The translations under genes were made by a program, and so were the position numbers. A stretch of 41,018 bases of DNA from the NCBI GenBank assembly GCA_902788555.1, contig CADAKQ010000021.1, positions 1 to 41,018 of the forward strand, written 5' to 3'. Under the pieces are notes generated by a model. That model had not been told where the DNA came from. It did no database searches and saw only the letters and a program-made list of their open reading frames with translations. This document shows positions 9,206-35,399 of the stretch, piece after piece. The stretch comes from an uncultured Lachnospiraceae bacterium (GTDB taxonomy: Bacteria > Bacillota > Clostridia > Lachnospirales > Lachnospiraceae). The first letter of the stretch is position 1. Every line of letters begins with the position of its first letter.

Positions 9206-9206
9206 T

Positions 9207-9788: not shown

Positions 9789-9796
9789 TTAATTTT

Positions 9797-10582
9797 ATGG
9801 AAAAAAGAAAAGTTATATATTATGAAAATGAATTAGAGGATGAATTTGCAAAGGCAAAAATTACTGCCAGAAGGATAGATGAAAGCTATGATTATGATGG
9901 CGGTGTCGGAAGAAGGATAGCAAGATTTATCATCTATGGAATAATTGCAAAGCCTGTTGCATTTTTATATCTTAAGCTTGTTTACGGACATAGGATAGTA
10001 AACAGAAAAATAATTAAAGAGTATTTAAAGAAAAAAGAGGATAAAGGCTTTTTCTTATATGGCAATCATACCAATGCGGGCGCCGATGCGCTTATACCGT
10101 CCATGATATGTATGCCTAAAAATGTTTCGGTTATTGTTCATCCCGATAATGTTTCTATGCCGGTATTCGGACATGTTACACCATGCCTTGGTGCAATTCC
10201 GCTGCCGGATGATAAAAAGGCTATGATTAATTTTATGAAGTCTCTTGAAAGGCGTGTATGTAAGGTAAAGGATTGCATAACCATATATCCTGAGGCTCAT
10301 ATATGGCCGTTTTATACACATATAAGACCATTTACGGATAAATCCTTTGGTTATCCGGTAAAATATAAAACTCCTGTTTTTTGCTTTACCAATACCTATC
10401 AAAAAAGATTCCTCTTTGGCGGTATAAGGATGGTTACTTATGTAGACGGACCGTTTTATCCGGAGGAAAACATTTCGGTTGTTGAAAGCAGAAAGAGACT
10501 TAGGGACAGTGTGTATGATATAATGGTTAAGCGAAGTGGAAATAATACATTTGAAAAGGTTCGATATATAAAAAAGGGTTAA
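9797..10582 (+). CDS. PlsC-like acyltransferase
   Basis: The 261-residue protein resembles the lysophospholipid acyltransferase (PlsC) family. GNHTNAGAD around residues 89-97 corresponds to the catalytic block, although His91 and Asp97 are separated by five residues instead of the canonical four. TIYPEAHIWPF matches the later glycerol-phosphate-binding PE block. A hydrophobic stretch near residues 43-62 could dip into the membrane. Family members with NHTQ-like motifs and HX5D spacing probably exist in Firmicutes, so the spacing is unlikely to be a defect. It lies in one operon with iorAB and two glycosyltransferases, and its acceptor may be a glycolipid or polymer intermediate, which is inference. 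Confidence 0.75.
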   Translation: MEKRKVIYYENELEDEFAKAKITARRIDESYDYDGGVGRRIARFIIYGIIAKPVAFLYLKLVYGHRIVNRKIIKEYLKKKEDKGFFLYGNHTNAGADALIPSMICMPKNVSVIVHPDNVSMPVFGHVTPCLGAIPLPDDKKAMINFMKSLERRVCKVKDCITIYPEAHIWPFYTHIRPFTDKSFGYPVKYKTPVFCFTNTYQKRFLFGGIRMVTYVDGPFYPEENISVVESRKRLRDSVYDIMVKRSGNNTFEKVRYIKKG

Positions 10583-10584
10583 TT

Positions 10585-11415
10585 ATGAATATACTATATG
10601 CAGGTAATTATAAGGTTTTTGACGGAGTTATGACAAGTATGCTTTCAATTTTAAAGCGTACCAAGGTTAAAGAACCATTTAATTTTTATATACTCACAAT
10701 GGATGTTTCCTTTATCAGGGAGGAATACACTCCAATCACCAAACGTCAGATAGATATACTTAGCCGGGCGGCTAAAAAATACAATTCCGATAATGAGATA
10801 AAATGCATAGATGTGACAGATATTTATAACAGGGAATTTGCGGGCAGTCCAAATGAGCAGTGCTATTGTTCGCCGTATACACTTATAAGGCTTTTTATGG
10901 ATATGCTTCCCGACATACCGGATAAAATTTTGTATCTTGACGCGGATATCATGTTTAACAGGGATATCGAGCTTTTATACAAGCATGATATTTCGGATTA
11001 CGAGTATGCGGCAGCGAGGGATCATTATGGAAAATATCTCATATATCCCAATTATATAAATGCAGGCGTGCTTTTGTTTAACATGAAAAAATGCAGGGAA
11101 ACAAGACTGTTCGAGAAGGCAAGGGAGCTTATAAAGCTTAAGAAGCTTACATTTGCGGATCAGAGTGCGATTATCAGAAGTACCACGAGAAAAAAGATGC
11201 TTCCGCAGAAGTTTAATGACCAGAAGTTTTTGCATAAATCAACTGTGGTAAGACATTTTTCAAAGAGACTATTTTATCTTCCGTATCCACACACGGAAAA
11301 TGTAAAGCAGTGGCATATAGACAGAATGAAAAAGGTTTTTAGATATAACCAATTTGATGATATTTTGGACGAATATTTGGATTGGAAGGAGAAATTGGAA
11401 CATGAGCAGATTTAA
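10585..11415 (+). CDS. Glycosyltransferase family 8 protein
   Basis: The 276-residue protein has the GT-A fold typical of GT8 retaining transferases (galactosyl- and glucosyltransferases acting on lipopolysaccharide, teichoic acid or glycolipids). Visible motifs are the N-terminal MNILYAGNYKVFDGVMTSMLSIL, the metal-binding DXD at Asp119-Ala-Asp121 (KILYLDADIMFN), and YINAGVLLFNMKKCR, with TFADQSAI as the next conserved block. The gene starts 2 bp after the acyltransferase stop and its end overlaps the next gene by 14 bp. No membrane segment is present, so it is cytoplasmic or peripheral. The sugar and acceptor are not known. Confidence 0.88.
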   Translation: MNILYAGNYKVFDGVMTSMLSILKRTKVKEPFNFYILTMDVSFIREEYTPITKRQIDILSRAAKKYNSDNEIKCIDVTDIYNREFAGSPNEQCYCSPYTLIRLFMDMLPDIPDKILYLDADIMFNRDIELLYKHDISDYEYAAARDHYGKYLIYPNYINAGVLLFNMKKCRETRLFEKARELIKLKKLTFADQSAIIRSTTRKKMLPQKFNDQKFLHKSTVVRHFSKRLFYLPYPHTENVKQWHIDRMKKVFRYNQFDDILDEYLDWKEKLEHEQI

Positions 11416-18057: not shown

Positions 18058-21000
18058 ATGAAAAATTTAAAGGGAAAAGTAACAAGACCAAGAAAGAGAG
18101 TGATAGCAATACTGCTGTCATTACTTATGGTTATGTCTATAATTCTGCCAAGTGGTGGAAGCGGTGTAAGGTACAATGCTTACGCTGAAGGGGAGGAGTC
18201 TGCCATTGGGGAAAGTGTAGATGTAAATGTTGCTACTTTGAGTGATGCTACATTAAGCGATGCATCAGAAGAAAAAGAATCGCTTATTTTTATTCAAGGA
18301 AATAATTTTATGGATGGCGGTTCTGATACTTATGTATATAGCTATGATTTGAATAAATTTATTACGGAGGCTGCAATATTAAAAAATAACACGGAAGTTA
18401 CAACACTTGATAAAGGAGATACTTATTCATTTAGATTTAAATTTAATGAGAGTTCAAGTTATCAGTTCTATAACGATGGAAATACTTTTACGTACACTAT
18501 TCCAAGTGAGTTTACTTTAAATACATATAATGGAACTGTACCGATTTATATGAATGTAGATGGAGAAAGCAAGGAGTTACCAAGTAATGCATATACAGTC
18601 AATGGTAATAGCATAACTTTTAATTTTAATACTACTCATGAATTATTCTCAAAATTAAATGAGTCGACGGCTACATGGTTTCAGATGGATTTAACCGGAA
18701 CGCTTTCGGATACCGCAACAGAAGGAAGTCATAATGTAGATTTTGGTAATAATATAACAAAAACATACAATTTTAATGTGAATGAAAATGTATCTGTTGA
18801 AAAGAGCTTTTCAAGCTATGATTCTTCGACACAGACTGCAACGTATTCCATGAAAATCAAATCAAAAGGTAATAACAGCAATGTGACAATAAGCGATACC
18901 ATAGGAGGTGTTTTGACATTTAATGGTATTACAAATGATGATTTTACTTTAACAGATAATAGTAATAATTGGGAACAACAGCAAAATTTACTAACAGCTT
19001 TTAAAAATCAACTAAATATAACGTCAGAAGGATTTACATCTACTATTGCCAATATGACAAATAATCAGGAGATTACGATTACTTATAAGGCAAAGATTGA
19101 TCCCGATAAAGTAAGTACGCAGCTTGGTGCGGATGTTGATGGATATTTAGATGAAACTAATACTGTTACAGTTAATTCTAATGAGGATACTGATAATACT
19201 GATAATACGAGTACAACAAATAATACCAACAAAATTAAATATTCAAGTATTTCAAAGCAGGCTTCGGTTGGTGAGGCTTCTGACGGAAAGGTTGTAACAA
19301 CCTGGACTGTTACGGTAAACTCTGAGCAGTTAATTTCCTTAGCAGGAACTGATATAACAGATGCGTTAGCAGGTGGCTCGGCACTGGATAAGTCGAATTT
19401 ATCAGGTGATGGATTATCTATAACTTATAATCCGAAAGAAGGAAGCCCGGAAACAAGGAATATTAGCTGGACGGAAGCTAAAGTTGGAGATAAAGGCTGG
19501 AAATATACTGTCCCAACCACTGATGTTGTGGCTTCATATATTATCACATATACAACTGAAACTGATATTTCTTCATATATTGAGGATAAAACGCTTCAAA
19601 ATAATACCGTATACAAATACGGAAATACATCTGAGACTGCAAATATCGGAATAGGTGAAGCGGATAAATTAACAGTTAATAAAACAGCTACATCTGTAGG
19701 CGCAAATGAGGTTGAATGGACTATAACAATAAACGTTCCGAAAAACGGGTATGATAGTTTAACTCTTATAGATACACTTCCTAATATATGGAAGAATAGC
19801 ACTCTTTGTATAGACAATTACATTGCTGAAAGCTTATCCATTACGGATTCCGCAGGTGTTTCTTTTGGATATGACTTCACAATTACAGGAGATAACAATA
19901 ATTATGTTGATATAAAATTTTATAAGGATGCAGAAAAAAATAATGAAGGTTTATCTTCCTATACAACAAACAGAACTCTTACAATTAAATTAAAAACTGA
20001 GGTTAATAGTGAGTGGGCTGAAGCTGCAAGGACAGATAATAATTATAAGCAGCATACAAATAACGTATCAGTAACAGCAAATGGAGTAACTAAAAGTGAT
20101 AGTGAAACTGTAGAACCACCTATTATAGCTGTTGACAAAATGATATGCGATAGAGACGGTTATAAGGACGGTACGGTTGAAATTAGTGGTAAAGAATATC
20201 CATACTTTGCATACGCAATAAGACTTTCAGGTATAAGTGAAAGCACTGTTGATTCAAATGGAAGAATTACTATAAATGATTCTTTTGATACTGATCTTTT
20301 TAAAGTTTATACTGAAAAAACAACTTCGGATAGTGGTGTTTTTGCCGGAAATGATAATGCATGGTATCAAGGTGAGAACGGAGGCAGTTATCATAGTGTA
20401 AATGAAAATGGAGAACTTGTAATTACACCGGCTAAAAAAGACGGTGAATACTATAAATATTATTATATTATATATTACCTTATTCCTAAAGATGAAACGG
20501 CATTGAGCACCTTAAAGACTCGTGCCATAGCAAATAACGGAACTTATAGCTTTGAAAACACAGCTACTTTCAGCGGCGTATCTGATAGTCAAACAAATAC
20601 ATACAAATATGGTGAAGATGCACTTGACAAAAAATTGATTTCGATTGATGGACACACAGTTAAATACTCAATAACTGTAAATCCTGAGGCATTGAAATTA
20701 AATAATGGAAATAATTTAACACTTATTGATGAATTTAATAATGGACTGAATATTGAGTATTCATCTATTACTATTTCTCCATCTGATGGAGTATCATATG
20801 ATTTTAGCGGTAATACCGGAACATTTACACTTAAAGATGAAACTGCTTATACTATTACTTATGAAATGATGTTGTTGCATAATGACAGCGGTAATAACCT
20901 TATATCAAATTATTATAATAAAGCAACATTAAAAGCCGAAGATACAGTATATGATTCGGACGAAAGCTCCGGCTCCCGAACCTTTAGTTCAGAGATTGGT

Positions 21001-24000
21001 GGGGCTGATACGTTGACCATAAAATTAAATAAGTATATAGCAAGGGATATGAACCAACCGTTGGAAGGAGCGGTTTTCCAACTTTACAAAAAAAATGGAG
21101 ATAAATATATTCCTGTTGCAGATAAACCATCAGGTGCATATGTTACCGGAATAACACAAGAAAATGGTACCGTGGTATTTACAGGTACATCTACAGATGG
21201 CGGAAATACTGGATGGGCTTTCTTTGCCGGTGATGTTTATGCTTTAAAGGAGATTGTTGCACCGGAAGGATATAACATTAGTCAAACATACTATGAATTT
21301 GAACTTACTAATGATTATACAAAAGTTAAGTATGATGAGACAAATAGTGTTTGGGTTTATTATACCGGTACTGAGCTTAAGGTATATGATACTCCGGGTG
21401 TTTCTATATTGGCTCAAAAGGTTGACAGTACAGACAATACCAAGAAGATTGAAGGTGCAACATATAAGCTTTATACAGACAGCTCATGTCAGACTGAATA
21501 TACTGGCGGCAATGGTAATTTAACTACTGATAATAATGGAGTTATAAGTTATTCTATTGAAAATGTAACATCAAGCTTTGATTTATATTTAAAGGAAGTA
21601 AGTGCACCGTCAGATTATCAGTTGGATGATACTGCATATAAACTTTCAATAACATACGATAATGTAAATAATAAGGCTACGTTAAATTCAGAATTAGAAA
21701 AAATTAACACTTATTATTTAAAACTGACAGATATACCGGATAGCACAATCGAGACCGGCACCATATCAGCTACAAAGAAGTTTGTTTCACAAAACGGAAA
21801 AACTGATACATTCTATCTGACACTTTATAAGGTTGACAACGAAAATAAAGATGAAGCTTTTGACCCGATTACAGATTATATTAAAAAGATTGATAATTTA
21901 ACCGGAACATCAGCAGGTGCAGAACAAACTGTTACATGGGAAAATATTCCTTATGGAACCTACAGGGTATATGAAACAGATGAGACTGGCAGAATAATAC
22001 TATATACTTCAAATATAGAAAAGTATATAATAAATGGTCAAGGTAATAATATTACTCTTGATGATACCCACACATCACCGAGCGTTACTGTTACAAATAC
22101 CGAAAAAACCGGAAAATTAAAGGTAAATAAAGTTTTCAAGGATGTGTCGGGAAGTGCGATTACGGATTCCTCAAAGAAAAAGCCTGTAACGATAGCACTT
22201 TACTCTGTAAACGGCGGAACAGAAACCTTAGTTGAAGCAAAGACTATTGCTGCAACAGAAACCTTTGCTGAGTTTACGGGGCTGGATGTGGAAAAGACAT
22301 ATAAGGTATATGAGGTAACCGGAACAGATCCGGATTATACTACACATGAATCAAGCATAACCTTAGATGGCAAGGATTATACAATTACTACTGAGCATAC
22401 AACTAACATCACTTTTGATTATGCTTCAGCAACCACGGCAATCGTAGATGCAACAGATGCAACCATAACCAATACCGAGGTTTTAGATAAGGGAAGTCTT
22501 GTTATAAGTAAGACATTTGAAGGCGTGGATTCAGAGGATTTAGCCAATATGTCGGAAGCCGACAAGCAGGCACTTACCTTTACTGTAACTAATTCAACAA
22601 ATGAAGAAGTAAAGACTATAACCTATGCACAGTTTACAGGTGATGCCGGTGATGCGGATGATGCTGCGGATACTTATACTATAGCCAATCTTCCTGTAGG
22701 AAGCTATACTGTAACGGAATCAGGATATAATGGTATTCTTAACAAGTATGTATTTACTGCAACAGGTTCAGAAACGGCTGTAACAAAAACCGTTGAAAAA
22801 AATGCTTCCGTAACAGCTCAGCTTAAGAATAAATATGAGAAAAAGACCGGTAGCCTAAAGGTAAATAAGGTATTTAAGAATAGTACCGGAACGGAAATAA
22901 CAGGAGCTTCAAACAGAAAAGATGTTACATTTGGGCTTTTCTCAGTAACAAATGCTGGTGAGACTTTTATAGAGGCAAAGACACTTACAGCAGGTGCAGC
23001 AACAAGGTATGTTGAGTTTACAGGTCTTGATGTAACCAAGACTTATAATGTATATGAAGGAACCTATGATGGAACTACATTTACCAAGTATGGAACAAGC
23101 ATTTTAATAGGTTCGACTACATATGCTGTTACAAAGTCACATGCATCGAATATCAAGTTTTTATATGAAAGTTCTGCAAATAATGTTGTAAATGCAACAG
23201 ATGCAACCATAACCAATACTGAGGTAAACGAGAAGGGCAGTCTTGTAATTAAAAAGACCTTTGGAGGCTTAGCTCAAGGAGTATCAGAAGGTATGACTGA
23301 TGCTCAAAAGAATGCACTTAAATTTACAGTCACTAACTCCGCAGGAGGTGAAGTTGAAACTATAGCATACAAAGATTTTACTGATTCTGATAGCGATGGC
23401 ATTTTAGATTCATACACTTTGGAAAATCTTCCGATTGGAAATTATACGGTGACGGAGTCCGGTCAGAGCGGAATATTTGATAAGTATGTACTTGTAACAA
23501 CAGGTACGGGTGCATCTGTTACAGAAAAAACAGCAGAGGTTGTTGATAATGGCTCTGTTACGGCAGAACTTAAGAATAATTATACCGAGAAAAAGGGAAC
23601 CATAAGAGTAAATAAAGTATTTAAAGACACTGATGGACATGAAATAACAGATGCGGCAAATCTTAAGGATGTGACAATCGGTCTTTATTCAGTAGATGGT
23701 GGAGTTGAAACCTTTAAAGAAGCAAAGACAATTCAGGCAGGTGCTAATGACAGATATGTTGAATTTACAAACCTTGATGTGACCAAGAAATATAATGTTT
23801 ATGAAGGAACACTTTCAGGTACCGATTTTGAGAAGGGTGGTTCTACCATAACTCTTGGTGATAAGAAGTATACAATTTCTTCTGAAAATGCAACGAATAT
23901 TACATTTACCTATGCAGCTGCATCAACTGCAAATGTAACCGCTGATGCCGCAACCATAACCAATACCGAGATGGCTGCTTCTCTTACCATCAAGAAGTCG

Positions 24001-26595
24001 TTTGATGCTGCAAGTGCAAAGCAGGCGGCTGATATAACATCAGGTCAGATTAAGTTTGATGTACGCGGAACCAATACCGGATATCACCGGATATATGATT
24101 ATGTGGATGATGGTATTGTAAACGGAGCAATTACCATACCTGTAGAACCTGATGCATATACCATAACTGAGACTTCAACCATAGAAGGCTCTGAGTATCG
24201 AAGAACAACAAGTATAAAGGTAGGTGGCATAGACCAAGGCGAGACAACAAGCACAGATGTTACAACTAATTCCGGAGATGAAATAAATGTAGAGTTCATA
24301 AATAATTATACTGTTATTGAAAATGGAAAGATTACTGTTAAGAAGTCGGTAAATGGATTACCTGACAGTATAGCTTCGTCAAAGGAATTTAAGCTTGTAA
24401 TTGAATATAAGGAAAATGCAGCAGCACCAACGAAGTATGTTGCAAAAACAGCAACAGGATATGGTATAGTTGATACGGAACCTGTAGGAGACGCGATTCC
24501 TTTTGTTAAAGCAGGCACACCTCTTACTATAACAGCTCTTCCTTACGGAACTTATAAAGTAAAGGAAGTAATGGGAGATGTAGATGTAGAATTCTATGAT
24601 TATATGGATGCTGATGCCTTGACTAATCCGAGTGTAACAACAGGGGATGCTGTCATTGATTCAAATGCTGTAAAGACGGTTGAGCTTATAAATAATTATG
24701 TTGAAAACAGAACCGTTGGAGTAGCTAAGTATGATGTGTCAGGCGAAACTGCCAAGCTTTTAAAGGGTGCAAAGCTTAAAATAACTGAAGGTACAAATGA
24801 GATAGCAGAATGGACTTCAAGCGACACGGCACCTTACTATGTAAATGGTCTTAAGTCGGGAGTTGTTTATACTCTTACAGAGACAAGTGCACCGGATGGA
24901 TTTATAAAGGTTAAGACTTCAACATTTGTTATAGACGAGGATGGAAGAGTTACAGTTACAGCCGGAAAATCAGGTGAAGTTACATACAGCAACGGTGAAG
25001 GTCTTATATATGTAAATAATAAGAAAACTTCGGTTAAGATATCAAAAGTTGATGTTACTTCCCAAGAAGAACTTTCAGGTGCTAAGATTCAGATTCTTGA
25101 CGAAGATGGTAATGTTGTAAAAGATGAAGACGGCAATTCCATTGAGTGGATTTCTACTGATAAGCCGAAGGAGATTACAGGTCTTAAGACCGGAGTAAAA
25201 TATACTCTTCGCGAGGTAGTTGCACCGAACGGATATCAGCTTACAACAGACACTGTATTTGTTATAAATGAAGATGGAAGTGTAAACGGTTCCGAAACTA
25301 CTACGGCAATTTCCGAAGAGGGGGTTTTGCTTGTTGAGGATGCACCGCTTGGAACCTTTGTAATCAATAAGAAGGGTCTTTACAATGAATTGTGTGCTGA
25401 AGATGCAGATGCAACGATTCCTCTTGAAGGTGCCGGATTTACGATTACAATTCCGGATGATGATTCCTTTGATGCTATTGTAAAGGTAACTGACAAGGAT
25501 GGCATCGCAGCATTTACCGACCTTGAACCGGGCAAATATGAGATAAGAGAAACTAAGGCTCCTAAGGGTTATATTCTCGGAGAGGATGTATATTATATCG
25601 AGATAAAGGCCGATGGTTCAAATGACGGTATAAGGGATAAGGACGGAAATGTAGTTGCGGGTAACAATATTATAAATGATGTACCGAGAACAAATATTAG
25701 CTTTGTCAAGGTAAATCTTGACAATAACGGCGAGAAGCTTCCGGGTTCAACCTATGGATTGTTCAAGCCGGGTGAGAATAATGCTCTTGTTAAGGTTGCC
25801 GAGGCAACCACGGACGATGAGGGTGTACTTGAATTTGACGGTGTTCTTACTGATGTGGAATATACAGTACAGGAGCTTGTTGCACCGGATGGCTTCTATG
25901 TATCGGAAAACCCAATAAGCATCAGCTTTAAGGTTGACGAGGATAATAATGTTGTTATAGATAAGTTTGACGACGGAAGCGGAACTGCAACTGTTGATGA
26001 GAATGGAAATATAACATGGCTTGAGCCGGAGGTTAAGGTAAGCTTTACTAAGCAGGATATGGAAGGTCATAATCTTGCAGGTGCAAGTCTTAAGGTTGTG
26101 GATGAGGATGGTAAGGATGTTATATCCTGGACATCGACAACAGAGCCTTATGTTGTAAACGGAACATTTATAGCAGGTAAGACTTATAAGCTTGTTGAGG
26201 TAGCAGCTCCTGACGGATATAAGCTTGCAGATCCTATAAGCTTTACCGTAAACGAAAAGGCGGGTGCTAAGGGTGAAGAAACTATAGCGGTTGTTATGAA
26301 GGATGAGAAGGAGACTACATCGACAACGCCTGATACACCGACAACGCCTGATACACCGACAACGCCTGATACACCGACAACGCCTGATACACCTACAACA
26401 CCTGATACACCGACAACGCCTGATACACCGACAACAACTGTTACGACAACTACGACAACGACTACTACCACCACAGAGGTAGAAACAGGAGATACAACAC
26501 CTGTTAAGCCGTTGGAAAATATGATGATTGTATCATTTGTGGGAATCGTACTTATGGCGGTGTTTGGAAGAAAACGTAAGGATTTATTTAAATAA
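18058..26595 (+). CDS. Giant sortase-anchored SpaA/Cna_B repeat adhesin
   Basis: The 2845-residue surface protein has a long signal peptide, likely cut after AYA43, and an ATLSDATLSDA motif at 59-69. Residues about 75-980 contain several pilin/adhesin-type beta domains (each starting with a VEKSF, ISKQAS, VNKTA or VDKM strand). Two SpaA-like domains follow at about 982-1215. Then come Cna_B-like domains to about 2215: three LKVNKVF/IRVNKVF units starting near 1350, 1596 and 1846 alternate with SLVISKTF-type units near 1478, 1726 and 1973. Five more SpaA domains start near 2219, 2326, 2431, 2546 and 2660, each ending in an E-x-x-APxGY motif. A Pro/Thr stalk and a sorting signal close the chain. 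The Lys-to-Asn/Asp isopeptide links typical of such domains would stiffen it. It probably acts in attachment or as a pilus-like fibre. Nothing in the window encodes a sortase. Confidence 0.92.
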   Translation: MKNLKGKVTRPRKRVIAILLSLLMVMSIILPSGGSGVRYNAYAEGEESAIGESVDVNVATLSDATLSDASEEKESLIFIQGNNFMDGGSDTYVYSYDLNKFITEAAILKNNTEVTTLDKGDTYSFRFKFNESSSYQFYNDGNTFTYTIPSEFTLNTYNGTVPIYMNVDGESKELPSNAYTVNGNSITFNFNTTHELFSKLNESTATWFQMDLTGTLSDTATEGSHNVDFGNNITKTYNFNVNENVSVEKSFSSYDSSTQTATYSMKIKSKGNNSNVTISDTIGGVLTFNGITNDDFTLTDNSNNWEQQQNLLTAFKNQLNITSEGFTSTIANMTNNQEITITYKAKIDPDKVSTQLGADVDGYLDETNTVTVNSNEDTDNTDNTSTTNNTNKIKYSSISKQASVGEASDGKVVTTWTVTVNSEQLISLAGTDITDALAGGSALDKSNLSGDGLSITYNPKEGSPETRNISWTEAKVGDKGWKYTVPTTDVVASYIITYTTETDISSYIEDKTLQNNTVYKYGNTSETANIGIGEADKLTVNKTATSVGANEVEWTITINVPKNGYDSLTLIDTLPNIWKNSTLCIDNYIAESLSITDSAGVSFGYDFTITGDNNNYVDIKFYKDAEKNNEGLSSYTTNRTLTIKLKTEVNSEWAEAARTDNNYKQHTNNVSVTANGVTKSDSETVEPPIIAVDKMICDRDGYKDGTVEISGKEYPYFAYAIRLSGISESTVDSNGRITINDSFDTDLFKVYTEKTTSDSGVFAGNDNAWYQGENGGSYHSVNENGELVITPAKKDGEYYKYYYIIYYLIPKDETALSTLKTRAIANNGTYSFENTATFSGVSDSQTNTYKYGEDALDKKLISIDGHTVKYSITVNPEALKLNNGNNLTLIDEFNNGLNIEYSSITISPSDGVSYDFSGNTGTFTLKDETAYTITYEMMLLHNDSGNNLISNYYNKATLKAEDTVYDSDESSGSRTFSSEIGGADTLTIKLNKYIARDMNQPLEGAVFQLYKKNGDKYIPVADKPSGAYVTGITQENGTVVFTGTSTDGGNTGWAFFAGDVYALKEIVAPEGYNISQTYYEFELTNDYTKVKYDETNSVWVYYTGTELKVYDTPGVSILAQKVDSTDNTKKIEGATYKLYTDSSCQTEYTGGNGNLTTDNNGVISYSIENVTSSFDLYLKEVSAPSDYQLDDTAYKLSITYDNVNNKATLNSELEKINTYYLKLTDIPDSTIETGTISATKKFVSQNGKTDTFYLTLYKVDNENKDEAFDPITDYIKKIDNLTGTSAGAEQTVTWENIPYGTYRVYETDETGRIILYTSNIEKYIINGQGNNITLDDTHTSPSVTVTNTEKTGKLKVNKVFKDVSGSAITDSSKKKPVTIALYSVNGGTETLVEAKTIAATETFAEFTGLDVEKTYKVYEVTGTDPDYTTHESSITLDGKDYTITTEHTTNITFDYASATTAIVDATDATITNTEVLDKGSLVISKTFEGVDSEDLANMSEADKQALTFTVTNSTNEEVKTITYAQFTGDAGDADDAADTYTIANLPVGSYTVTESGYNGILNKYVFTATGSETAVTKTVEKNASVTAQLKNKYEKKTGSLKVNKVFKNSTGTEITGASNRKDVTFGLFSVTNAGETFIEAKTLTAGAATRYVEFTGLDVTKTYNVYEGTYDGTTFTKYGTSILIGSTTYAVTKSHASNIKFLYESSANNVVNATDATITNTEVNEKGSLVIKKTFGGLAQGVSEGMTDAQKNALKFTVTNSAGGEVETIAYKDFTDSDSDGILDSYTLENLPIGNYTVTESGQSGIFDKYVLVTTGTGASVTEKTAEVVDNGSVTAELKNNYTEKKGTIRVNKVFKDTDGHEITDAANLKDVTIGLYSVDGGVETFKEAKTIQAGANDRYVEFTNLDVTKKYNVYEGTLSGTDFEKGGSTITLGDKKYTISSENATNITFTYAAASTANVTADAATITNTEMAASLTIKKSFDAASAKQAADITSGQIKFDVRGTNTGYHRIYDYVDDGIVNGAITIPVEPDAYTITETSTIEGSEYRRTTSIKVGGIDQGETTSTDVTTNSGDEINVEFINNYTVIENGKITVKKSVNGLPDSIASSKEFKLVIEYKENAAAPTKYVAKTATGYGIVDTEPVGDAIPFVKAGTPLTITALPYGTYKVKEVMGDVDVEFYDYMDADALTNPSVTTGDAVIDSNAVKTVELINNYVENRTVGVAKYDVSGETAKLLKGAKLKITEGTNEIAEWTSSDTAPYYVNGLKSGVVYTLTETSAPDGFIKVKTSTFVIDEDGRVTVTAGKSGEVTYSNGEGLIYVNNKKTSVKISKVDVTSQEELSGAKIQILDEDGNVVKDEDGNSIEWISTDKPKEITGLKTGVKYTLREVVAPNGYQLTTDTVFVINEDGSVNGSETTTAISEEGVLLVEDAPLGTFVINKKGLYNELCAEDADATIPLEGAGFTITIPDDDSFDAIVKVTDKDGIAAFTDLEPGKYEIRETKAPKGYILGEDVYYIEIKADGSNDGIRDKDGNVVAGNNIINDVPRTNISFVKVNLDNNGEKLPGSTYGLFKPGENNALVKVAEATTDDEGVLEFDGVLTDVEYTVQELVAPDGFYVSENPISISFKVDEDNNVVIDKFDDGSGTATVDENGNITWLEPEVKVSFTKQDMEGHNLAGASLKVVDEDGKDVISWTSTTEPYVVNGTFIAGKTYKLVEVAAPDGYKLADPISFTVNEKAGAKGEETIAVVMKDEKETTSTTPDTPTTPDTPTTPDTPTTPDTPTTPDTPTTPDTPTTTVTTTTTTTTTTTEVETGDTTPVKPLENMMIVSFVGIVLMAVFGRKRKDLFK
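26323..26430 (+). repeat. 18-bp in-frame tandem repeat of the wall-spanning stalk
   Basis: Six units of ACAACGCCTGATACACCG (units 4 and 5 carry one change each) encode TTPDTP six times. A threonine-only run follows. This is the usual proline-rich spacer that crosses the peptidoglycan, and its copy number can change without losing the frame. Confidence 0.95.
26476..26592 (+). other. C-terminal cell-wall sorting signal of the adhesin
   Basis: The last 39 residues (2807-2845) read EVETGDTTPVKPLENMM, then a hydrophobic segment IVSFVGIVLMAVF and a basic tail GRKRKDLFK. The layout is that of a sortase signal, but LPXTG is replaced by EVETG, which keeps only the TGD part found in many clostridial LPxTGD signals. 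Confidence 0.75.
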
Positions 26596-27718: not shown

Positions 27719-28702
27719 TTAGGAAACTGTACAATAATCAATAAATTTTTCAAGAGCCGTATGTTTTATCTTTCCGTTTGGATAGATAAATCCGACGGTT
27801 CTTTTTTTGACCTCATTTTCAAGAGGCAGTTCAATAATTTGACCGCTTTCAAGATAATCGGTTGCAAATTCACGTACAATACTTGCGACTCCCATGCCGA
27901 TAGCAGCAAAGTCTATAAGAAGGTCCATATTATTTATTTCAAGTACTTGATTTGGGTATATTCCTTCCTCAGCCAGATAGCTGTCTATATGGGTTCTGGT
28001 TAAATTGTTGGGTTCAAGCAGCATTAGATTGGATTTTTCAAGTATTTCCTTGATTGAAAGTTTGAATTCCGGTTTGCTTTCTTCCTCAGGTATAAAGGAT
28101 GTAAGATTGCCGGCAAAAAAGTATGGACTTTCGGCATTTTCCATATCATCCTTTTCTCTTAAATGCAAATTATCTATATAGCTGTCGGAAGCTACAAATA
28201 TATCGTGAATATCCTGAAGCTTCTTATATTCATAACCCTTCGGAATATCCGTTTCACATATAAGACCTATATCGATTTTATCATTTTGAAGAAGCTTGAT
28301 AGTATTGATGGTGGAGTGGCAGTCAATGATTACCTTAATATGAGGATTCTCGGTTATAAATCCCTTAAGATAATCAAGCAGTATATGCTTACACAGCGAG
28401 GTGCTTACACCAATCCTGAGCTGACCTATACCGAATTCATTAATCTTTTTAATTTCGTCTTCACCCTTGGCAATATTTTCAAAAGCAGTCTCAATATGTT
28501 TATATAAAACCTCGCCCTCCTGAGTCAAAGCAACTCCCTTTGAGGTCCTTTCAAACAGCTTTGTTTCAAGCCCTTCCTCAAGCTTAGCCAGAGATTTACT
28601 GATTGCCGGCTGACTGATAAAAAGCTTTTCGGCAGCCTTGCTGAGACTTCTATACTTCGCAACATTATAAAAAACCTTGTAATTATTTAAATTATCGTAC
28701 AT
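27719..28702 (-). CDS. LysR-family transcriptional regulator, divergent from leuC
   Basis: The 327-residue protein has the LysR winged helix-turn-helix at residues 1-60 (NNYKVFYNVAKYRSLSKAAEKLFISQPAISKSLAKLEEGL, FERTSKGVALTQEGE), a coiled linker helix (about 60-88) and a substrate-binding effector domain from about residue 92 (GQLRIGVSTSLCKHILLDYL ... DIGLICE). It is transcribed away from leuC, with a perfect LysR-type operator in between, the classical arrangement for a regulator of the divergent operon. The effector is not predictable; for leucine operons it is often a pathway intermediate such as isopropylmalate, but that is an inference from other systems. Confidence 0.9.
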   Translation of the reverse strand: MYDNLNNYKVFYNVAKYRSLSKAAEKLFISQPAISKSLAKLEEGLETKLFERTSKGVALTQEGEVLYKHIETAFENIAKGEDEIKKINEFGIGQLRIGVSTSLCKHILLDYLKGFITENPHIKVIIDCHSTINTIKLLQNDKIDIGLICETDIPKGYEYKKLQDIHDIFVASDSYIDNLHLREKDDMENAESPYFFAGNLTSFIPEEESKPEFKLSIKEILEKSNLMLLEPNNLTRTHIDSYLAEEGIYPNQVLEINNMDLLIDFAAIGMGVASIVREFATDYLESGQIIELPLENEVKKRTVGFIYPNGKIKHTALEKFIDYCTVS

Positions 28703-28863
28703 AAAACAACCTCACAAATTATTAATAAAAAAATTCAAAAATAAAATTCAGAAATATAATTCAAATATCTTTGTTAATCTATTTAAAGACATTAACCCTA
28801 ATTGGTTTCCGACATAAAGAATTATTTTATTTTATATAACAGAATTTTATTATACATCAACAT

Positions 28864-28886
28864 TGATATAACTTCAAGTTATATCA
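28864..28886. promoter_or_regulatory. LysR-type operator (perfect 11-bp dyad, T-N11-A)
   Basis: TGATATAACTT at 28864-28874 and AAGTTATATCA at 28876-28886 are perfect inverted repeats around one C. The core TAACTTCAAGTTA fits the T-N11-A recognition rule of LysR regulators. Its centre is about 65 bp upstream of the predicted leuC start site, the usual position of the activator's recognition site. Confidence 0.8.
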
Positions 28887-28903
28887 TCTATCAAAATAAT
28901 TCA

Positions 28904-28933
28904 TTATGAAAATAATACTCCTTATGTTACAAT
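28904..28933 (+). promoter_or_regulatory. leuC promoter, weak -35 and good -10
   Basis: TACAAT at 28928-28933 is a good -10 box, and TTATGA at 28904-28909 (18-bp spacer) is a poor -35 box, as expected for an activator-dependent promoter. Transcription would start near 28940, just before the leader hairpin. Confidence 0.55.
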
Positions 28934-28949
28934 AACAATCAGTTTATTG

Positions 28950-29203
28950 GCGGATTTATTGGCGTGCCGTACAAAAACTTTAATTTTAGTTGGACGAATA
29001 ACAATGTATAAGCAGGTACTCTGAAGACGCCGGTTGTTAGTGGATTAATATAAAAATATATAACGAGCAAAGTGAGTTAATATTTTTTTTATTAAGACAC
29101 TTACTACCGCTGCGTCTGAGGGTAGCGAGAGCGTGCCTGCGATACATTGGTTATCTGTACAACTAAGTCAAGAAATTAAAACGGCACGCCCACAAATTCT
29201 CGC
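28950..29203 (+). ncRNA. Structured leader element, copy 1 (leuC)
   Basis: The conserved core (29012-29140) is held in an outer stem that reaches about 28950 and 29203, with interruptions; the outermost part GGCGTGCCGT pairs with ACGGCACGCC. P1 is GCAGGTAC (29012-29019) with GTGCCTGC (29133-29140). P2 is AGACGC (29025-29030) with GCGTCT (29112-29117). P3 is 29031-29042 with 29098-29109. A long A/T-rich stem is inserted below the apical cap, where ACGAG (29063-29067) faces TGAGT (29073-29077). leuC starts 28 nt after the element. See the findings for the family evidence. Confidence 0.8.
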
Positions 29204-29231
29204 TAAAATGATATAAATGGAGGAAACCAAT

Positions 29232-30497
29232 ATGGGTATGACTATGACACAGAAAATTCTTGCAGCTCATGCAGGACTTGAAAGTGTAAGCGCAGGACAG
29301 CTCATTGAAGCAGATTTGGACTTGGTTTTAGCCAATGATGTCACAGCTCCTGTTGCAATTCATGAGATGGAAAAATTCAATAAAAAAGAGGTATTTGACA
29401 AGGAAAAGGTTGCTCTTGTCATGGACCATTTCACTCCGAATAAGGATATCAAGAGTGCAGAGCATTGTAAATGTGTAAGAGAGTTTTCAAAGGACTATGA
29501 TATTACAAACTTTTTTGATGTAGGTGCAATGGGAATCGAGCATGCATTATTACCGGAAAAAGGTCTTATAGTGGCAGGTGAAACCTGTATAGGTGCTGAT
29601 TCACATACATGTACATATGGTGCACTCGGTGCATTTTCAACAGGTGTCGGAAGTACAGATATGGCAGCCGGCATGGTTACTGGAAAGGCTTGGTTTAAAG
29701 TACCTTCCGCAATCAAGTTTAATATAGTCGGAGAAAAGGCTAAATGGGTAAGCGGTAAGGATGTTATCCTTCACATTATCGGTATGATTGGTGTGGATGG
29801 TGCATTATATCGTTCCATGGAGTTTGTAGGTGAGGGTATTAAGAATCTCACTATGGATGACAGATTTACCATAGCCAATATGGCTATTGAAGCGGGAGCA
29901 AAAAATGGTATCTTTCCTGTAGATGAGCTTACCGAAGAATATATGAAGGAACACTCAACAAAGTCTTATACAAAGTATGAGGCAGATGCCGATGCAGAAT
30001 ATGATGAGGAATATACGATTGATTTGTCAACTCTTAAGCCTACCGTAGCATTTCCTCATCTTCCTGAAAATACAAAGACTATCGATGAGGTTGGCGATAT
30101 AAAGATTGATCAGGTTGTAATCGGTTCTTGTACAAACGGTCGTATCTCTGATATGAGAATTGCAGCCGAGATTATGAAGGATAAGCATGCTGCCGACGGA
30201 GTAAGAGTTATCGTTATTCCTGGAACTCAGGATGTTTATCTTCAGATGTTAAAGGAAGGCTTGACTGAAATATTTATAAAAGCAGGTGCTATAGTTTCAA
30301 CACCTACCTGTGGTCCTTGCTTAGGAGGACATATGGGCGTTATGGCTGCCGGTGAGAAAGCAGTTTCAACAACCAATCGTAACTTTGTAGGCAGAATGGG
30401 ACATGTGGATTCAGAGGTTTATCTTGCAAGTCCGGCTGTTGCTGCGGCATCCGCCATAACAGGTAAGATAAGCTGTCCATGTGAGCTTGGTTTATAG
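29232..30497 (+). CDS. leuC: 3-isopropylmalate dehydratase large subunit
   Basis: This subunit isomerises 2-isopropylmalate to 3-isopropylmalate in leucine synthesis, together with LeuD. The 421-residue protein holds the aconitase-type [4Fe-4S] site: GSCTNGR and [12 protein letters not shown] carry cluster cysteines, with C in [13 protein letters not shown] as the third. Start at ATG 29232 is chosen, since GGAGG at 29219-29223 lies 8 nt upstream and an in-frame ATG at 29217 falls on that site itself. Its length is that of the HacA-type (archaeal and clostridial) LeuC. leuD follows 19 bp later. Confidence 0.95.
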
Positions 30498-30516
30498 GAC
30501 AAAGGAGGTTATGAAA

Positions 30517-31005
30517 ATGAGAGCATGCGGAACAGTACACAAATACGGTGACAATGTAGATACAGACGTAATTATACCTGCAAGATATCTTAATTCTTCG
30601 GATCCTGCTGAATTAGCGAAAAACTGTATGGAAGATATAGATAAGGATTTTGTAAACAGAGTAAAGCCGGGCGATATCATGGTTGCCAACAAGAACTTCG
30701 GATGCGGTTCTTCAAGAGAGCACGCACCGATAGCTATAAAGGCTTCAGGCATAAGCTGCGTTATAGCAGAAACCTTTGCCAGAATCTTTTACAGAAATGC
30801 AATCAATATAGGACTTCCGATTATAGAATGTCCTGAAGCTGCCAAGGCAATCGAAGCCGGTGATACAGTGGAAATCGACTTTGATTCAGGTATGATATAT
30901 GACAAGACAAAGGGCTTGGAATTTAAAGGTCAGGCATTCCCGCCATTTATGCAGGAGATAATCAAAAGCGGCGGACTTATAGCGAGAATCAATGCTAAAA
31001 ATTAA
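30517..31005 (+). CDS. leuD: 3-isopropylmalate dehydratase small subunit
   Basis: The 162-residue swivel-domain partner of LeuC contains [15 protein letters not shown] at the start and [10 protein letters not shown], the substrate-binding loop. Its short length matches the archaeal/clostridial small subunit and not the enterobacterial one of about 200 residues. AAAGGAGG at 30501-30508 points to ATG 30517 with an 8-nt spacing; ATG at 30511 would be too close. It is co-transcribed with leuC. Confidence 0.95.
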
Positions 31006-31091
31006 TTTATAATTATTTAATTTTTTTATTAATTAAAAGTTCATTTAATAATTATTTTATTAGTATTTATTTTAACTGTTAAAAATTAACA

Positions 31092-31231
31092 GGATTTGAC
31101 AGGATAGAAATAATTCATAAGCAGGTACTTTGAACACGCCGGTACTTAACGAGCATGCGAGTTTAGTACCGTTGCGTGTGAGAGTAGCGAGAGCGTGCCT
31201 GCGATGAATTAATATCTATTCTGGAAAGTCC
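31092..31231 (+). ncRNA. Structured leader element, copy 2 (purC)
   Basis: The core is 31121-31202, with P1 GCAGGTAC/GTGCCTGC, P2 ACACGC/GCGTGT, and P3 CGGTACTTA/TTTAGTACCG. The apical cap pairs ACGAG (31149-31153) with CGAGT (31158-31162) around CATG. An outer stem is formed by 31092-31118 and 31204-31231; its inner part TAATTCAT/ATGAATTA is perfect and the outer part has a few mismatches. purC starts 21 nt downstream. Confidence 0.8.
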
Positions 31232-31252
31232 GTAAAGAGAAAGGAAGAAAAA

Positions 31253-32122
31253 ATGAAAGAATTTAAACCGGTTAAGGAAGGTAAAGTAAGAGAGATATAC
31301 GATAACGGCGATAATCTTATTATGGTAGCTACAGACAGAATAAGCTGCTTTGACGTAATACTTAACAATGTCGTAACCAAAAAGGGTACAGTGCTTACCC
31401 AGATGTCAAAGCTCTGGTTTGATATGACAGAGGATATAATTCCAAACCATATGATATCCGTTGATGTAAATGATATGCCGGAGTATTTCAGACAGCCACA
31501 GTTTGATGGCAATTCAATGATGTGTAAGAAGCTTGAAATGCTTCCTATCGAGTGTATCGTGCGTGGATATATAACAGGAAGCGGTTGGGAGAGCTACAAG
31601 AAGGATGGTACCGTATGTGGTATAAAGCTTCCTGACGGTCTTAAGGAGTCTGATAAGCTTCCGGAACCTATATACACACCTTCCACAAAGGCCGAGATAG
31701 GCGAGCATGACGAAAATATTTCCTATGAGCAGAGTGTGGCACATCTTGAAAAGTATTTCCCTGGTAAGGGTGAGGAATACGCTTCAAAGCTCAGAGATTA
31801 TACAATAGCACTTTATAAGAAATGCGCCGATTATGCACTTACTAAAGGCATAATCATAGCAGATACCAAGTTCGAATTCGGTCTTGATGAGGATGGAAAT
31901 ATGGTTCTCGGCGACGAAATGCTTACACCGGATAGCTCCAGATTCTGGCCTGCAGACGTATACGAGCCGGGACATTCACAGCCGTCCTTTGATAAGCAGT
32001 TCGCCCGTGATTGGTTAAAGAGCCATGAAGGACATAACTGGACACTCCCACAGGACGTAGTTGATAAAACAATAGCAATTTACCTCGAAGGATATGAGAA
32101 GCTTTCAGGTAAGAAGTTATAG
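31253..32122 (+). CDS. purC: Phosphoribosylaminoimidazole-succinocarboxamide synthase
   Basis: PurC condenses CAIR with aspartate, using ATP, to make SAICAR in purine synthesis. The 289-residue protein has the N-terminal GKVREIYD and ATDRISCFDV, the IECIVRGYITGSGW signature, and IADTKFEFGLDEDG as the second signature. The C-terminal SFDKQFARDWL extension marks the longer enzyme form. Aspartate links it to the amino acid genes around it, but no other purine gene is in the window, so its position in a leucine/isoleucine-valine cluster is unusual. It is preceded by the second copy of the structured element and followed by the third. Confidence 0.95.
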   Translation: MKEFKPVKEGKVREIYDNGDNLIMVATDRISCFDVILNNVVTKKGTVLTQMSKLWFDMTEDIIPNHMISVDVNDMPEYFRQPQFDGNSMMCKKLEMLPIECIVRGYITGSGWESYKKDGTVCGIKLPDGLKESDKLPEPIYTPSTKAEIGEHDENISYEQSVAHLEKYFPGKGEEYASKLRDYTIALYKKCADYALTKGIIIADTKFEFGLDEDGNMVLGDEMLTPDSSRFWPADVYEPGHSQPSFDKQFARDWLKSHEGHNWTLPQDVVDKTIAIYLEGYEKLSGKKL

Positions 32123-32167
32123 AATAAATAATTATACAATTTATTTGAGTAGAACTTAAAAATAACA

Positions 32168-32308
32168 GGAAGTAATTGGATATGATAATTCATAAGCAGG
32201 TACTTTGAACACGCCGGTACTTAGTGAGGTTTTTTCGAGCTTAGTACCGTTGCGTGTGAGAGTAGCGAGAGCGTGCCTGCGATGAATTTATCATATACAA
32301 TTACTTCC
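32168..32308 (+). ncRNA. Structured leader element, copy 3 (leuB)
   Basis: The core is 32196-32280. The outer stem is nearly perfect over 26 bp: 5' GGAAGTAATTG and GATATGATAATTCAT at 32168-32193 pair with 32282-32308, which has one extra base. An AA/G internal loop separates it from P1, as in the other copies. The cap pairs GTGAG with CGAGC around a T-rich loop. Only 45 bp lie between the purC stop and this stem, so there is little room for a separate promoter. leuB starts 22 nt downstream. Confidence 0.85.
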
Positions 32309-32330
32309 GTAATGAGAAAGGAAGAGAAAA

Positions 32331-33413
32331 ATGAATTGTAACATTGCAGTTATAAAGGGCGACGGTATCGGTCCCGAGGTCGTAACCGAAGCTATGAAGG
32401 TGCTTGATGCGGTAGGAAAAAAATTCGGTCATACATTTAACTATGAACAGCTTCTTATGGGCGGCTGCTCCATAGACAAATACGGTGATCCTCTTACCGA
32501 CGAAACAGTTGCCATAGCAAAGTCCAAGGACGCGGTTTTACTTGGCTCAATCGGTGGAAATACTCAGACCTCACCTTGGTATAAGCTTCCTCCAAATAAA
32601 AGACCTGAAGCGGGACTTTTAAAAATCCGTAAGGAACTTGGGTTGTTTGCAAATCTTCGTCCTGCATATCTTTATCCTGAACTTAAAGAGGCTTGTCCTC
32701 TAAAGGAAAGTGTTGCTGAAAGAGGCTTTGACATGATGATAATGCGTGAGCTTACCGGCGGACTTTATTTTGGAGAAAGATACACCAAAGAAATAGATGG
32801 TGTAATGACAGCGGTTGATACGCTTACATACAATGAAAATGAGATAAGAAGAATAGCTGTTAAGGGCTTTGATATAGCTATGAAGAGAAGAAAAAAGGTT
32901 ACCCTTGTAGATAAGGCAAACGTACTTGATTCATCCAGACTTTGGAGAAAGGTAACCGAGGAAGTTGCAAAGGATTATCCTGAAGTTGAATATGAAACAA
33001 TGCTTGTAGATAATGCCGCTATGCAGCTTGTAAAGGATCCGGCTCAGTTCGATGTAATGCTTACAGAGAACATGTTTGGTGACATACTTTCAGATGAGGC
33101 TTCCATGATAACAGGCTCTATAGGAATGCTTTCGTCAGCATCTCTTAATGAAACAAAGTTTGGACTCTATGAGCCTTCGGGTGGTTCGGCTCCTGACATA
33201 GCAGGTCAAAACATAGCTAATCCGATAGCAACAATCTTAAGCGCAGCTATGATGCTTCGATATACCTTTGACCTTGATAAAGAAGCAGATGCCATCGAGA
33301 ATGCGGTAAAGAAGGTTCTTGAAGAAGGCTATAGGACCATTGATATCGCAAAACCTGGCGAGCCACAGGTTAAATGTGATGAGATGGGCAGCTTAATAGC
33401 GGAAAGAATTTAA
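32331..33413 (+). CDS. leuB: 3-isopropylmalate dehydrogenase
   Basis: This NAD-dependent enzyme oxidatively decarboxylates 3-isopropylmalate. The 360-residue protein shows VIKGDGIGPEV at the N-terminus, LLKIRKELGLFANLRPA, MIMRELTGGLYFG, and the family signature NMFGDILSDEASMITGSIGML with the metal-binding aspartates; GSAPDIAGQNIANP lies near the end. ATG at 32331 is preceded by AAAGGAAGAG. The ribosome-binding stretch AGAGAAAGGAAGA before purC is almost the same, suggesting that these two leader regions share recent ancestry. Confidence 0.96.
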   Translation: MNCNIAVIKGDGIGPEVVTEAMKVLDAVGKKFGHTFNYEQLLMGGCSIDKYGDPLTDETVAIAKSKDAVLLGSIGGNTQTSPWYKLPPNKRPEAGLLKIRKELGLFANLRPAYLYPELKEACPLKESVAERGFDMMIMRELTGGLYFGERYTKEIDGVMTAVDTLTYNENEIRRIAVKGFDIAMKRRKKVTLVDKANVLDSSRLWRKVTEEVAKDYPEVEYETMLVDNAAMQLVKDPAQFDVMLTENMFGDILSDEASMITGSIGMLSSASLNETKFGLYEPSGGSAPDIAGQNIANPIATILSAAMMLRYTFDLDKEADAIENAVKKVLEEGYRTIDIAKPGEPQVKCDEMGSLIAERI

Positions 33414-33442
33414 TTTTTTTAATTATATGTAACCAATAAACA

Positions 33443-33583
33443 GCTTGTTATCTGACTTATAAATCTAAAGTCAGGTACTTTGAACACGCCGGTACTTAGC
33501 GAGGTTTTGTCGAGCTTAGTACCGCTGCGTGTGAGAGTAGCGAGAGCGTGCCTGACGTAGATTTGATAAGTCAGATAACAAGC
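33443..33583 (+). ncRNA. Structured leader element, copy 4 (ilvD)
   Basis: The core is 33470-33556. P1 differs from other copies in both arms (GTCAGGTAC with GTGCCTGAC) and remains fully paired. The outer stem (CTTGTTATCTGACTTAT, then AAATCTA, at 33444-33467) pairs with 33558-33582 with one bulge. The cap pairs GCGAG with CGAGC. The stem starts only 29 nt after the leuB stop, so read-through from leuB is likely. ilvD starts 30 nt downstream. Confidence 0.85.
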
Positions 33584-33613
33584 GTGATTAAAACATAAAA
33601 GGAGAAATGATTT

Positions 33614-35281
33614 ATGCAAAGTGATAATATGAAATGCGGTCTTCAGCAGGCACCGGCACGTTCACTTCTGAATGCACTCGGATACACTGCCGAAGAAATC
33701 AAAAAGCCAATGGTTGGTATCGTATGCTCCTACAATGAGATTGTACCGGGACATATGAACCTTGATAAAATTGCCGAGGCTGTTAAGCTCGGAGTTGCCG
33801 AAGCAGGCGGAACACCTGTTATGTTTCCGGCAATAGCGGTATGTGATGGTATCGCTATGGGACATGTGGGTATGAAGTATTCACTTGTAACAAGAGATTT
33901 GATAGCTGATTCTACAGAGTGTATGGCTATCGCTCACCAGTTTGATGCACTCGTTATGATACCTAACTGTGATAAGAACGTTCCGGGACTTCTTATGGCG
34001 GCTGCAAGAGTAAATGTTCCTACTGTATTTGTATCGGGAGGACCTATGCTGGCAGGACATATCCATGGAAGAAAGAGAAGTCTTTCATCTATGTTCGAAG
34101 CAGTCGGAGAGCGTACTGCCGGAAAGATTACCGATGAGGATGTTGTAGAGTTTGAGGAAAAGGTTTGTCCGACCTGTGGTTCCTGTTCAGGTATGTACAC
34201 TGCAAACTCCATGAACTGTCTTACTGAAGTACTCGGTATGGGACTTCCGGGAAACGGAACTATACCTGCGGTTTATTCTGAGAGACTTCGTCTTGCAAAG
34301 AAAGCCGGATATGCAGTTATGGATATGTTAAAGAAGAACATCCGCCCGCGTGACATTATCACTAAGGATGCTATTTTAAATGCTCTTACAGTGGATATGG
34401 CACTTGGATGTTCAACAAATTCCATGCTTCATCTTCCTGCAATTGCACATGAGATAGGCTTTGACTTTGATATATCCTTTGCCAATCCAATCAGTGAGAA
34501 GACTCCTAACCTCTGTCACCTTGCACCTGCAGGTCCTACATATATGGAAGACCTCAATGAAGCAGGCGGTGTATATGCAGTAGTTAAAGAGCTTTGTGAT
34601 ATCGGACTTATAAATGAAGATTGTATGACAGTTACCGGTAAGACCATCGGTGAAGCTGTTAAGAATTCAGTAAATAGAAATCCTGAGGTTATACGTCCTG
34701 TAGATAATCCATATTCTAAGACAGGCGGACTTGCGGTTCTTAAGGGTAATCTTGCACCGGACGGTTCGGTTGTAAAGCGTTCCGCTGTAGTACCTGAGAT
34801 GCTTAAGCATGAAGGCCCTGCAAGAGTATTTGATTCGGAAGAGGATGCGATTGCAGCTATCCTTGGAGGAAAGATTGTTGACGGAGATGTTGTTGTTATA
34901 AGATATGAAGGCCCTAAGGGCGGTCCGGGTATGAGAGAGATGCTCAATCCTACATCAGCAATTGCAGGTATGGGACTTGGTTCATCAGTAGCACTTATTA
35001 CAGACGGACGTTTCTCAGGAGCAAGCCGTGGTGCTTCCATAGGACACGTATCACCGGAAGCAGCAGTTGGCGGACCTATTGCCTTTGTAGAAGAGGGAGA
35101 TATAATTGAGATTGATATCAATAATTACTCCATCAACTTAAAAGTATCCGATGAGGAGCTTGCAAAGCGTAAAGCCAACTGGACACCAAAGGAGCCAAAG
35201 GTAACAACAGGATATCTTGCAAGATATGCAAAGATGGTAACCTCAGGCAACAGAGGCGCAATACTTGAGATTAAGGATTAA
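33614..35281 (+). CDS. ilvD: Dihydroxy-acid dehydratase
   Basis: IlvD makes the 2-keto acid precursors of valine, leucine and isoleucine. The 555-residue protein carries the iron-sulfur site cysteines in [26 protein letters not shown] and, further N-terminal, [34 protein letters not shown] is the C-terminal signature, with KGGPGMREM before it. ATG at 33614 has AAAAGGAG in front. The short all-alpha/beta form is that common in Clostridia. The gene is not followed by an evident terminator, and ilvB has a separate promoter. Confidence 0.96.
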
Positions 35282-35335: not shown

Positions 35336-35399
35336 ATCAAACATAATTATTATAGAAAATATAATTCATACAGCAGAAAAATAGAAAGGAAGAATTTGT

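Follow-up and report, generated by a model that had tools for sequence, protein, structure and literature searches.

What are the structured RNA elements that precede several biosynthesis genes in this contig, and why are they there? We analysed a stretch of 41,018 nucleotides from an uncultured Lachnospiraceae bacterium (assembly GCA_902788555.1, contig CADAKQ010000021.1, positions 1 to 41,018 of the forward strand), called here the window. It carries four structured elements of about 140-245 nt, with one common fold, in the gaps before leuC, purC, leuB and ilvD. The original prediction saw in them a covarying RNA family that might regulate branched-chain amino acid and purine genes. We consider instead, with a probability of about 0.7, that they are copies of a dispersed Lachnospiraceae repeat resembling a miniature inverted-repeat transposable element (MITE). 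Its conserved part would be a three-way-junction RNA core. The family looks like a new structured repeat, not like a dedicated amino-acid or purine switch. The window's own genome, 88.7% complete, is named G000, and the element copies in it e01-e39.

All four elements lie on the forward strand, and the genes downstream of them were identified by NCBIfam. The element before leuC occupies 28954..29197 (model match 28998-29153; GNRA hairpin 29125-29132). Its apical arm is longer, a type found in further copies, and its long imperfect outer stem sets these approximate limits. The element before purC lies at 31092..31231 (model match 31107-31215; GNRA hairpin 31187-31194), and that before leuB at 32168..32308 (model match 32182-32294; GNRA hairpin 32265-32272). 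The last one, before ilvD, covers 33437..33590 (model match 33457-33568; GNRA hairpin 33540-33547). With the outer arms included, these limits are close to the coordinates first proposed, and the four elements stand where they had been claimed. All of them fold better than dinucleotide shuffles (200 each). The z values were -9.6, -9.1, -9.6 and -10.6 for the leuC, purC, leuB and ilvD copies, and no shuffle was as good.

The family is not a product of chance. The pattern of the 3' core, with up to three mismatches, has 31 matches in G000 and none for the reversed control. Likewise, a covariance model finds at least 39 copies there (E of 1 or better). This number is a lower bound, since 150 of the 1634 candidates were scored.

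At the centre of the fold is a three-way junction that includes a short GNRA hairpin; a long basal stem closes it. In 23 of the 39 G000 copies this stem continues for 13-17 nt beyond the 112-position model, often with GG at its start and CC at its end. The inner end of P1 is conserved (GCAGGUAC/GUGCCUGC). On one side of the junction stands the two-pair hairpin with the GNRA loop. The opposite side consists of a U-Y-U/G-R-G step, a tandem GA/GA mismatch, P2, P3 (with its YU bulge and U-U mismatch) and the apical loop. This loop has two types, short (about 80 nt between the core marks) or long (about 130 nt). The type may change between species despite matching arms at the locus, as at e04, e22 and e25 between G000 and G008. 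GAGAGUAG may resemble loop E of 5S rRNA.

Most of the helices had been described correctly in the original prediction. P1 and the YT bulge are as claimed, and so is the U-U mismatch of P3. P2 does carry the double change (AGACGC/GCGTCT against ACACGC/GCGTGT). The conserved junction parts that it called unpaired are at least partly paired. Within GAGRGTAGCGAGAGC lies a small hairpin, GC-GAGA-GC, whose loop is of the GNRA type, and the core is therefore a three-way junction. TYTGA and GAGRG are partly paired, and their Y-R pair covaries (UA 22, CG 6, other 1; n=29).

We made two alignments to follow the pairing. The first one holds 29 G000 copies, drawn from 30 loci with the short L030 left out. 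Pairing is kept in 95.5% of its cells, double changes occur in 22 of the 40 pairs, and four of five covariation measures were reached by none of 500 shuffles. The second one holds 85 distinct copies from the genus and from other genera. It shows 94.7% of paired cells and double changes in 32 of the 40 pairs. Its covariation score was 0.556 against 0.185 in shuffles, and none of the 500 shuffles reached any of the five measures. This alignment leans towards the model because it was fitted to it; when slid by 1-3 columns, its score was at most 0.095. The structured family with helix covariation that had been proposed is thus borne out in both alignments. The tetraloop follows the GNRA rule in 81 of the 85 copies (45 GAGA, 12 GAAA, 12 GCAA, 8 GGGA, 2 GCGA, 1 GTAA, 1 GGAA), with 4 non-GNRA loops. 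Three U-G pairs are nearly invariant (29, 29 and 28 of the 29 G000 copies).

The original prediction had not recognised the element as a T-box, SAM, lysine or ykkC element, and named an Rfam search as a check. Nothing in the whole window reached the gathering score of an Rfam 15 family. With the threshold relaxed to E of 10, positions 28700-33700 gave three matches only, with E of 4-5 and far under their cut-offs. We recognised no open-access paper that describes this element; the subscription literature was outside the scope of the search.

The family is dispersed within one bacterial family. Among 99 relatives, 47 had matches: all 37 genomes of the genus (G000 included) and 10 of the 24 other family members, and none of the 38 genomes from other families of the order. 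A survey of 200 genomes of the family found matches in 78, corresponding to 77 of 199 genera. At the level of the class, 7 of 196 genomes had matches, and all seven belong to the same bacterial family (the matchless genomes were partly listed). Copy numbers are lower bounds because the scored candidates were limited to 30 per genome in the 99-relative survey and to 15 in the survey of 200. Of the 80 named LeuB relatives, the majority are listed under Lachnospiraceae, from which the family name is taken.

Related genomes hold copies with the hallmarks of transposition. Several genera, and within the window's genus four genomes (L068, L070, L075, L077), have copies of about 207 bp with terminal inverted repeats AGGTAATTGCGAAACTC.../...GTTTCGCAATTACCT. 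At least one end of the terminal repeat was present in 18 of the 357 sequences examined, and in 10 of these the ends are paired, about 146-204 bp apart. Flanking direct repeats with a score of 8 or more were found in 8 of 13 such copies, compared with 2 of 156 mispaired controls. At a score of 9 or more, the counts were 6 of 13 and 0 of 156. The remaining 5 of the 13 copies scored 0-6. In this test L352 was left out, and the second ends of L293, L340 and L341 were placed by eye. Perfect direct repeats reach 16 bp in L339 and 15 bp in L293. The copies of about 207 bp thus show both shared terminal inverted repeats and target-site duplication, by which a MITE is recognized. A filled and empty pair is seen in the ilvD-ilvB gap, where L154 holds a shortened copy with the same ends and L156 and L158 are empty. 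The direct repeat of L154 has 9 exact bases, or about 15 with mismatches. In G237, near-identical copies with the same core sequence stand at different loci. Separately, within L337-L356, the same core is seen between different outer arms in G249, G118, G113, G131 and G170.

A transposase gene occurs between the same ends. On two viral contigs of IMG/VR we found insertion sequences whose ends, TAGGTAATTGCGAAACTC, agree with the termini of the copies of about 207 bp. The one on L360 (369-2164) encloses a gene for a 485-aa transposase and has an 11-bp perfect direct repeat. The other, on L364 (about 8985-10750), encloses a gene for a 507-aa transposase, and no direct repeat was seen by eye. Both proteins are DUF772-type and match PF05598 above the cut-off. 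Unlike in the repeat, a pattern search found no core motif in L360. These two IS1182-like insertion sequences are a candidate autonomous partner. As for the element itself on mobile DNA, viral contigs contained no exact match to a 23-base core pattern. Phage records showed nothing similar to the purC copy, and plasmid records nothing similar to one G237 copy.

The copies turn over at orthologous sites. We sought the regions orthologous to 32 of the 39 loci in G008, G024 and G022, and took 60 regions, from G008 and G024 only. L118 (RGIG4472, LeuB 99% identical) appears to be G024, because the spacing of its two elements is the same. The scripted comparison found the core in 18 regions and none in 42. 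Neither arm was kept in 27 of these 42, both in 8 and one in 7; the hairpin is therefore mostly gained or lost as a unit. At least three of the regions scored as core-less hold a core of the other type (e19 in G024, e22 and e25 in G008). Core-only losses were seen at e15, e22 and e36 in G024. Other losses leave the arm that adjoins the ribosome-binding site (e30, purC of L118, e34). Core-less hairpins of G024 have their arms still paired (the L221 region before panD, L233, L257). The gap before leuB in L119 (about 4760-5000) has no element and contains a tandem repeat with a unit of roughly 68-70 nt (CCGGTAACAAAA...).

The original prediction had set one alternative against its own proposal, namely a mobile repeat inserted at random places with no helix covariation. 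The mobile repeat fits the family; the absence of covariation does not, as covariation is present.

Several observations weigh against a MITE-like repeat with a selected RNA core. Terminal repeats were found at no locus of G000, the four copies of the window included. A symmetric search for flanking repeats at the 39 G000 copies yielded a single weak case (score of 9 or more), the same as in mispaired controls. The arms of different G000 copies are unrelated, unlike normal MITE ends. The proteins of L360 and L364 resemble the IS1182 model weakly (68-69 bits, with a cut-off of 270). At ilvB, folD and sufB, some relatives without the element carry the arm adjoining the ribosome-binding site, which is unexpected under simple insertion of a unit, unless these are deletions. 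As for the RNA, 15 of the 500 shuffles had at least as many pair types as the 29-copy alignment, this being its fifth covariation measure. Apart from the three nearly invariant U-G pairs, G-U (4) is not above A-C (9) in the core. The remaining G-U pairs give therefore no strand-specific signal, although the GNRA rule and the three U-G pairs do give one. Finally, G044 shows no orientation bias: 4 sense, 4 antisense, 7 convergent and 6 divergent copies at 21 of its 22 loci, the truncated L302 being left out.

Two rival explanations start from the basal stems of G000. Each stem is private to its copy, yet well self-paired. A comparison of 33 G000 copies gives an identity of 33% in the outer 14 nt, where composition alone would give 29%, and of 80% and 71% in the two core stretches. 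At one locus across species, the arms can be identical (e01, e14), differ by one compensated change (e22) or be widely different (e07, e10, e28). Such arms might belong to a palindrome family maintained at the DNA level, its pairing kept by template switching during replication and not by selection on RNA. Private arms that pair well within a copy, wholly different arms at the same locus and the persistence of core-less hairpins (e15, e22 and e36 in G024) speak for it. Nevertheless, it is unlikely, considering the GNRA loops and the U-G pairs retained in nearly all copies. In the arms of 36 G000 copies (e37-e39 left out), G-U cells outnumber A-C cells 18 to 6, next to 854 Watson-Crick and 35 other cells; the reverse order in the core tempers this last point. 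Somewhat less likely still is a snap-back at insertion, in which the flank on one side of a mobile core would serve as template for an inverted copy on the opposite side. It would explain the 3' arms that stand without a 5' arm in element-less relatives: ilvB (G016 and the window), folD (G024) and sufB (G024, G023). In the window, the sequence before ilvB (35360..35374, forward strand) equals the 3' arm of L118's element at the same site, with neither core nor 5' arm. It would also account for e13 (L100; G000 contig 34, 2207-2317), on whose 5' side the downstream ribosome-binding site and start codon recur as an inverted copy; this inverted copy is not found at the corresponding site in G008 and G024. 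However, recent G237 copies have their arms in common, and the lone arms at purC of L118 and at e30 are deletions because core remnants accompany them. The idea of arms as inverted target copies was drawn from the ilvB site, and then judged not general, with neither arm present at 27 of 42 sites. Arms borrowed from elsewhere in G000 were discarded too. In a search of 36 arms against that genome, with 40 of 80 candidate stretches scored, 63 of 68 matches fell at the loci of the elements themselves; the remaining 5 had E of 0.68. Deletion and copying models each fit parts of the data on lone and private arms.

Two further rivals concern function and the moving enzyme. The first is a riboswitch or attenuator dedicated to biosynthesis genes, those for branched-chain amino acids and purines among them. 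Close to the original proposal of a cis-regulatory RNA, it is very improbable, despite the conserved fold and many biosynthetic neighbours (leuC, purC, leuB, ilvD, trpD, argC, panD, ribBA, carA). One neighbouring gene was scanned by NCBIfam at 30 of the 39 G000 loci, and for 6 of these genes nothing was found at the limit used. The list includes amino acid, nucleotide and vitamin genes, which look enriched by eye, alongside the unrelated lepA, pgsA, gpr, ftsY, sufB, ldh and rlmD. G006 shares few target genes: purC and rlmD recur, and the others differ (20 of 29 downstream genes scanned, one without hit). Orientation favours the sense strand in G000 (24 sense, 9 antisense, 3 convergent and 3 divergent by automatic gene calling, n=39) and in G006 (21, 3, 3 and 2, respectively). 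Of the 27 G000 copies with sense or divergent orientation, 24 give a median distance of 38 nt from the model end to the start codon; in e23, e28 and e32, left out, the called start lies inside the element. Nevertheless, the 9 antisense copies among 39 do not fit a switch, nor does a presence that varies at orthologous sites between close relatives. A regulon for amino-acid and purine genes, with a consistent gene set, sense direction and retention at orthologues, is not what we see. We reject that reading because of gene content, orientation and turnover. No U-run follows the stem, a point that rests on reading the sequence because the terminator scan allows only loops of 3-8; restricted to these loops, the scan found no terminator-like site at the four copies. 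Ligand sensing is not indicated. A repeat driven by a REP-associated tyrosine transposase (RAYT; REP, repetitive extragenic palindrome) or by a reverse transcriptase is the least probable of all. The many small hairpin repeats recall it, and a GTAG motif abuts a hairpin, GTAG-tagged REPs being known (PMC3733652). However, the elements are much longer than REPs. PF01797 occurs in 8 of 37 genus genomes; G000, G008 and G024 are not among them, nor is G006 (one contig, 29 copies). PF00078 occurs in 14 of 37 and is missing in G021, G028 and G034 despite 22, 22 and 24 matches. These distributions do not support RAYT/REPIN or reverse-transcriptase partners.

Known small repeats offer partial likenesses. 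Prokaryotic MITEs (Correia/NEMIS, ERIC, QMITE2; PMC10969869) are likewise short, non-coding and intergenic, with stable hairpin transcripts, and share the inverted-repeat ends and direct repeats of the copies of about 207 bp. In contrast, the part shared across genera here is a covarying three-way-junction RNA with a GNRA loop, and the window's genome has copy-private arms with no shared ends seen. The bcr repeats of the Bacillus cereus group (PMC3446304) are intergenic families often transcribed in untranslated regions or operons, some with conserved secondary structure. They belong to other organisms, and are likened by description and not by sequence or structure. GTAG/CGTC-tagged REPs are palindromic too, and some REP dimers are reported inside longer palindromes; however, REPs measure 20-40 bp (PMC3733652), and no RAYT-type gene was found in G000.

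Returning to the MITE-like repeat, we read the family as a selected RNA core carried by such an element. In this reading, a transposase like that of L360 would mobilise the family in trans. The four copies of the window, lacking terminal repeats, may descend from such insertions. Copies between co-directional genes would be co-transcribed, and the mRNA would then contain a long stem with the junction at its tip. Placed just before the ribosome-binding site, this stem could be cut by RNase III or act as a 5' stabiliser for the next cistron. By analogy, such cutting or protection seems the likeliest effect on mRNA. The elements may thus serve in operon processing, the other role offered in the original prediction. 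Correia transcripts are reported to be cut by RNase III (PMC10969869), and bcr3 correlates with a longer mRNA half-life (PMC3446304). The sense bias in G000 and G006, together with the even start-codon distance in G000, suggests that sense copies are tolerated or useful there.

A more tentative idea, possible though rather doubtful, gives the RNA core the working role in the mobile element. The selected three-way junction with its GNRA loop would then serve the element itself, by taking part in movement or by insulating host mRNA and so limiting the damage of insertions close to ribosome-binding sites. Cores would be exchanged between copies, each keeping or regenerating its private basal stem. 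If so, an RNA fold, and not the DNA ends, would define this bacterial mobile element. It is by its DNA ends that a small mobile repeat is usually recognised; in this family, a covarying RNA fold unites a repeat found in 77 of 199 sampled genera, and the ends are copy-private in the window's genome. The role of the RNA becomes testable, be it in movement, in protection of host transcripts or in regulation. Pairs of alleles with and without the element provide a natural measure of how a hairpin before the ribosome-binding site alters expression. The case also advises caution: covariation and a position before biosynthesis genes are insufficient alone to show a riboswitch.

The AT-rich flanks of the elements had prompted the suspicion of a promoter at the element start. 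Promoter-like sites number 32 in the whole stretch, against 19.6 +/- 4.5 in shuffles, a count that is uninformative for the element sites. Elsewhere in the window, a unit of 73-74 nt (TAACAGGAGAAAGAAAAAG...) is repeated in five tandem copies at 68-428. Positions 18058-26595 hold an open frame of 2845 aa with repeated stretches and a tandem TPDTPT-type tail, which by eye looks like a large cell-surface protein.

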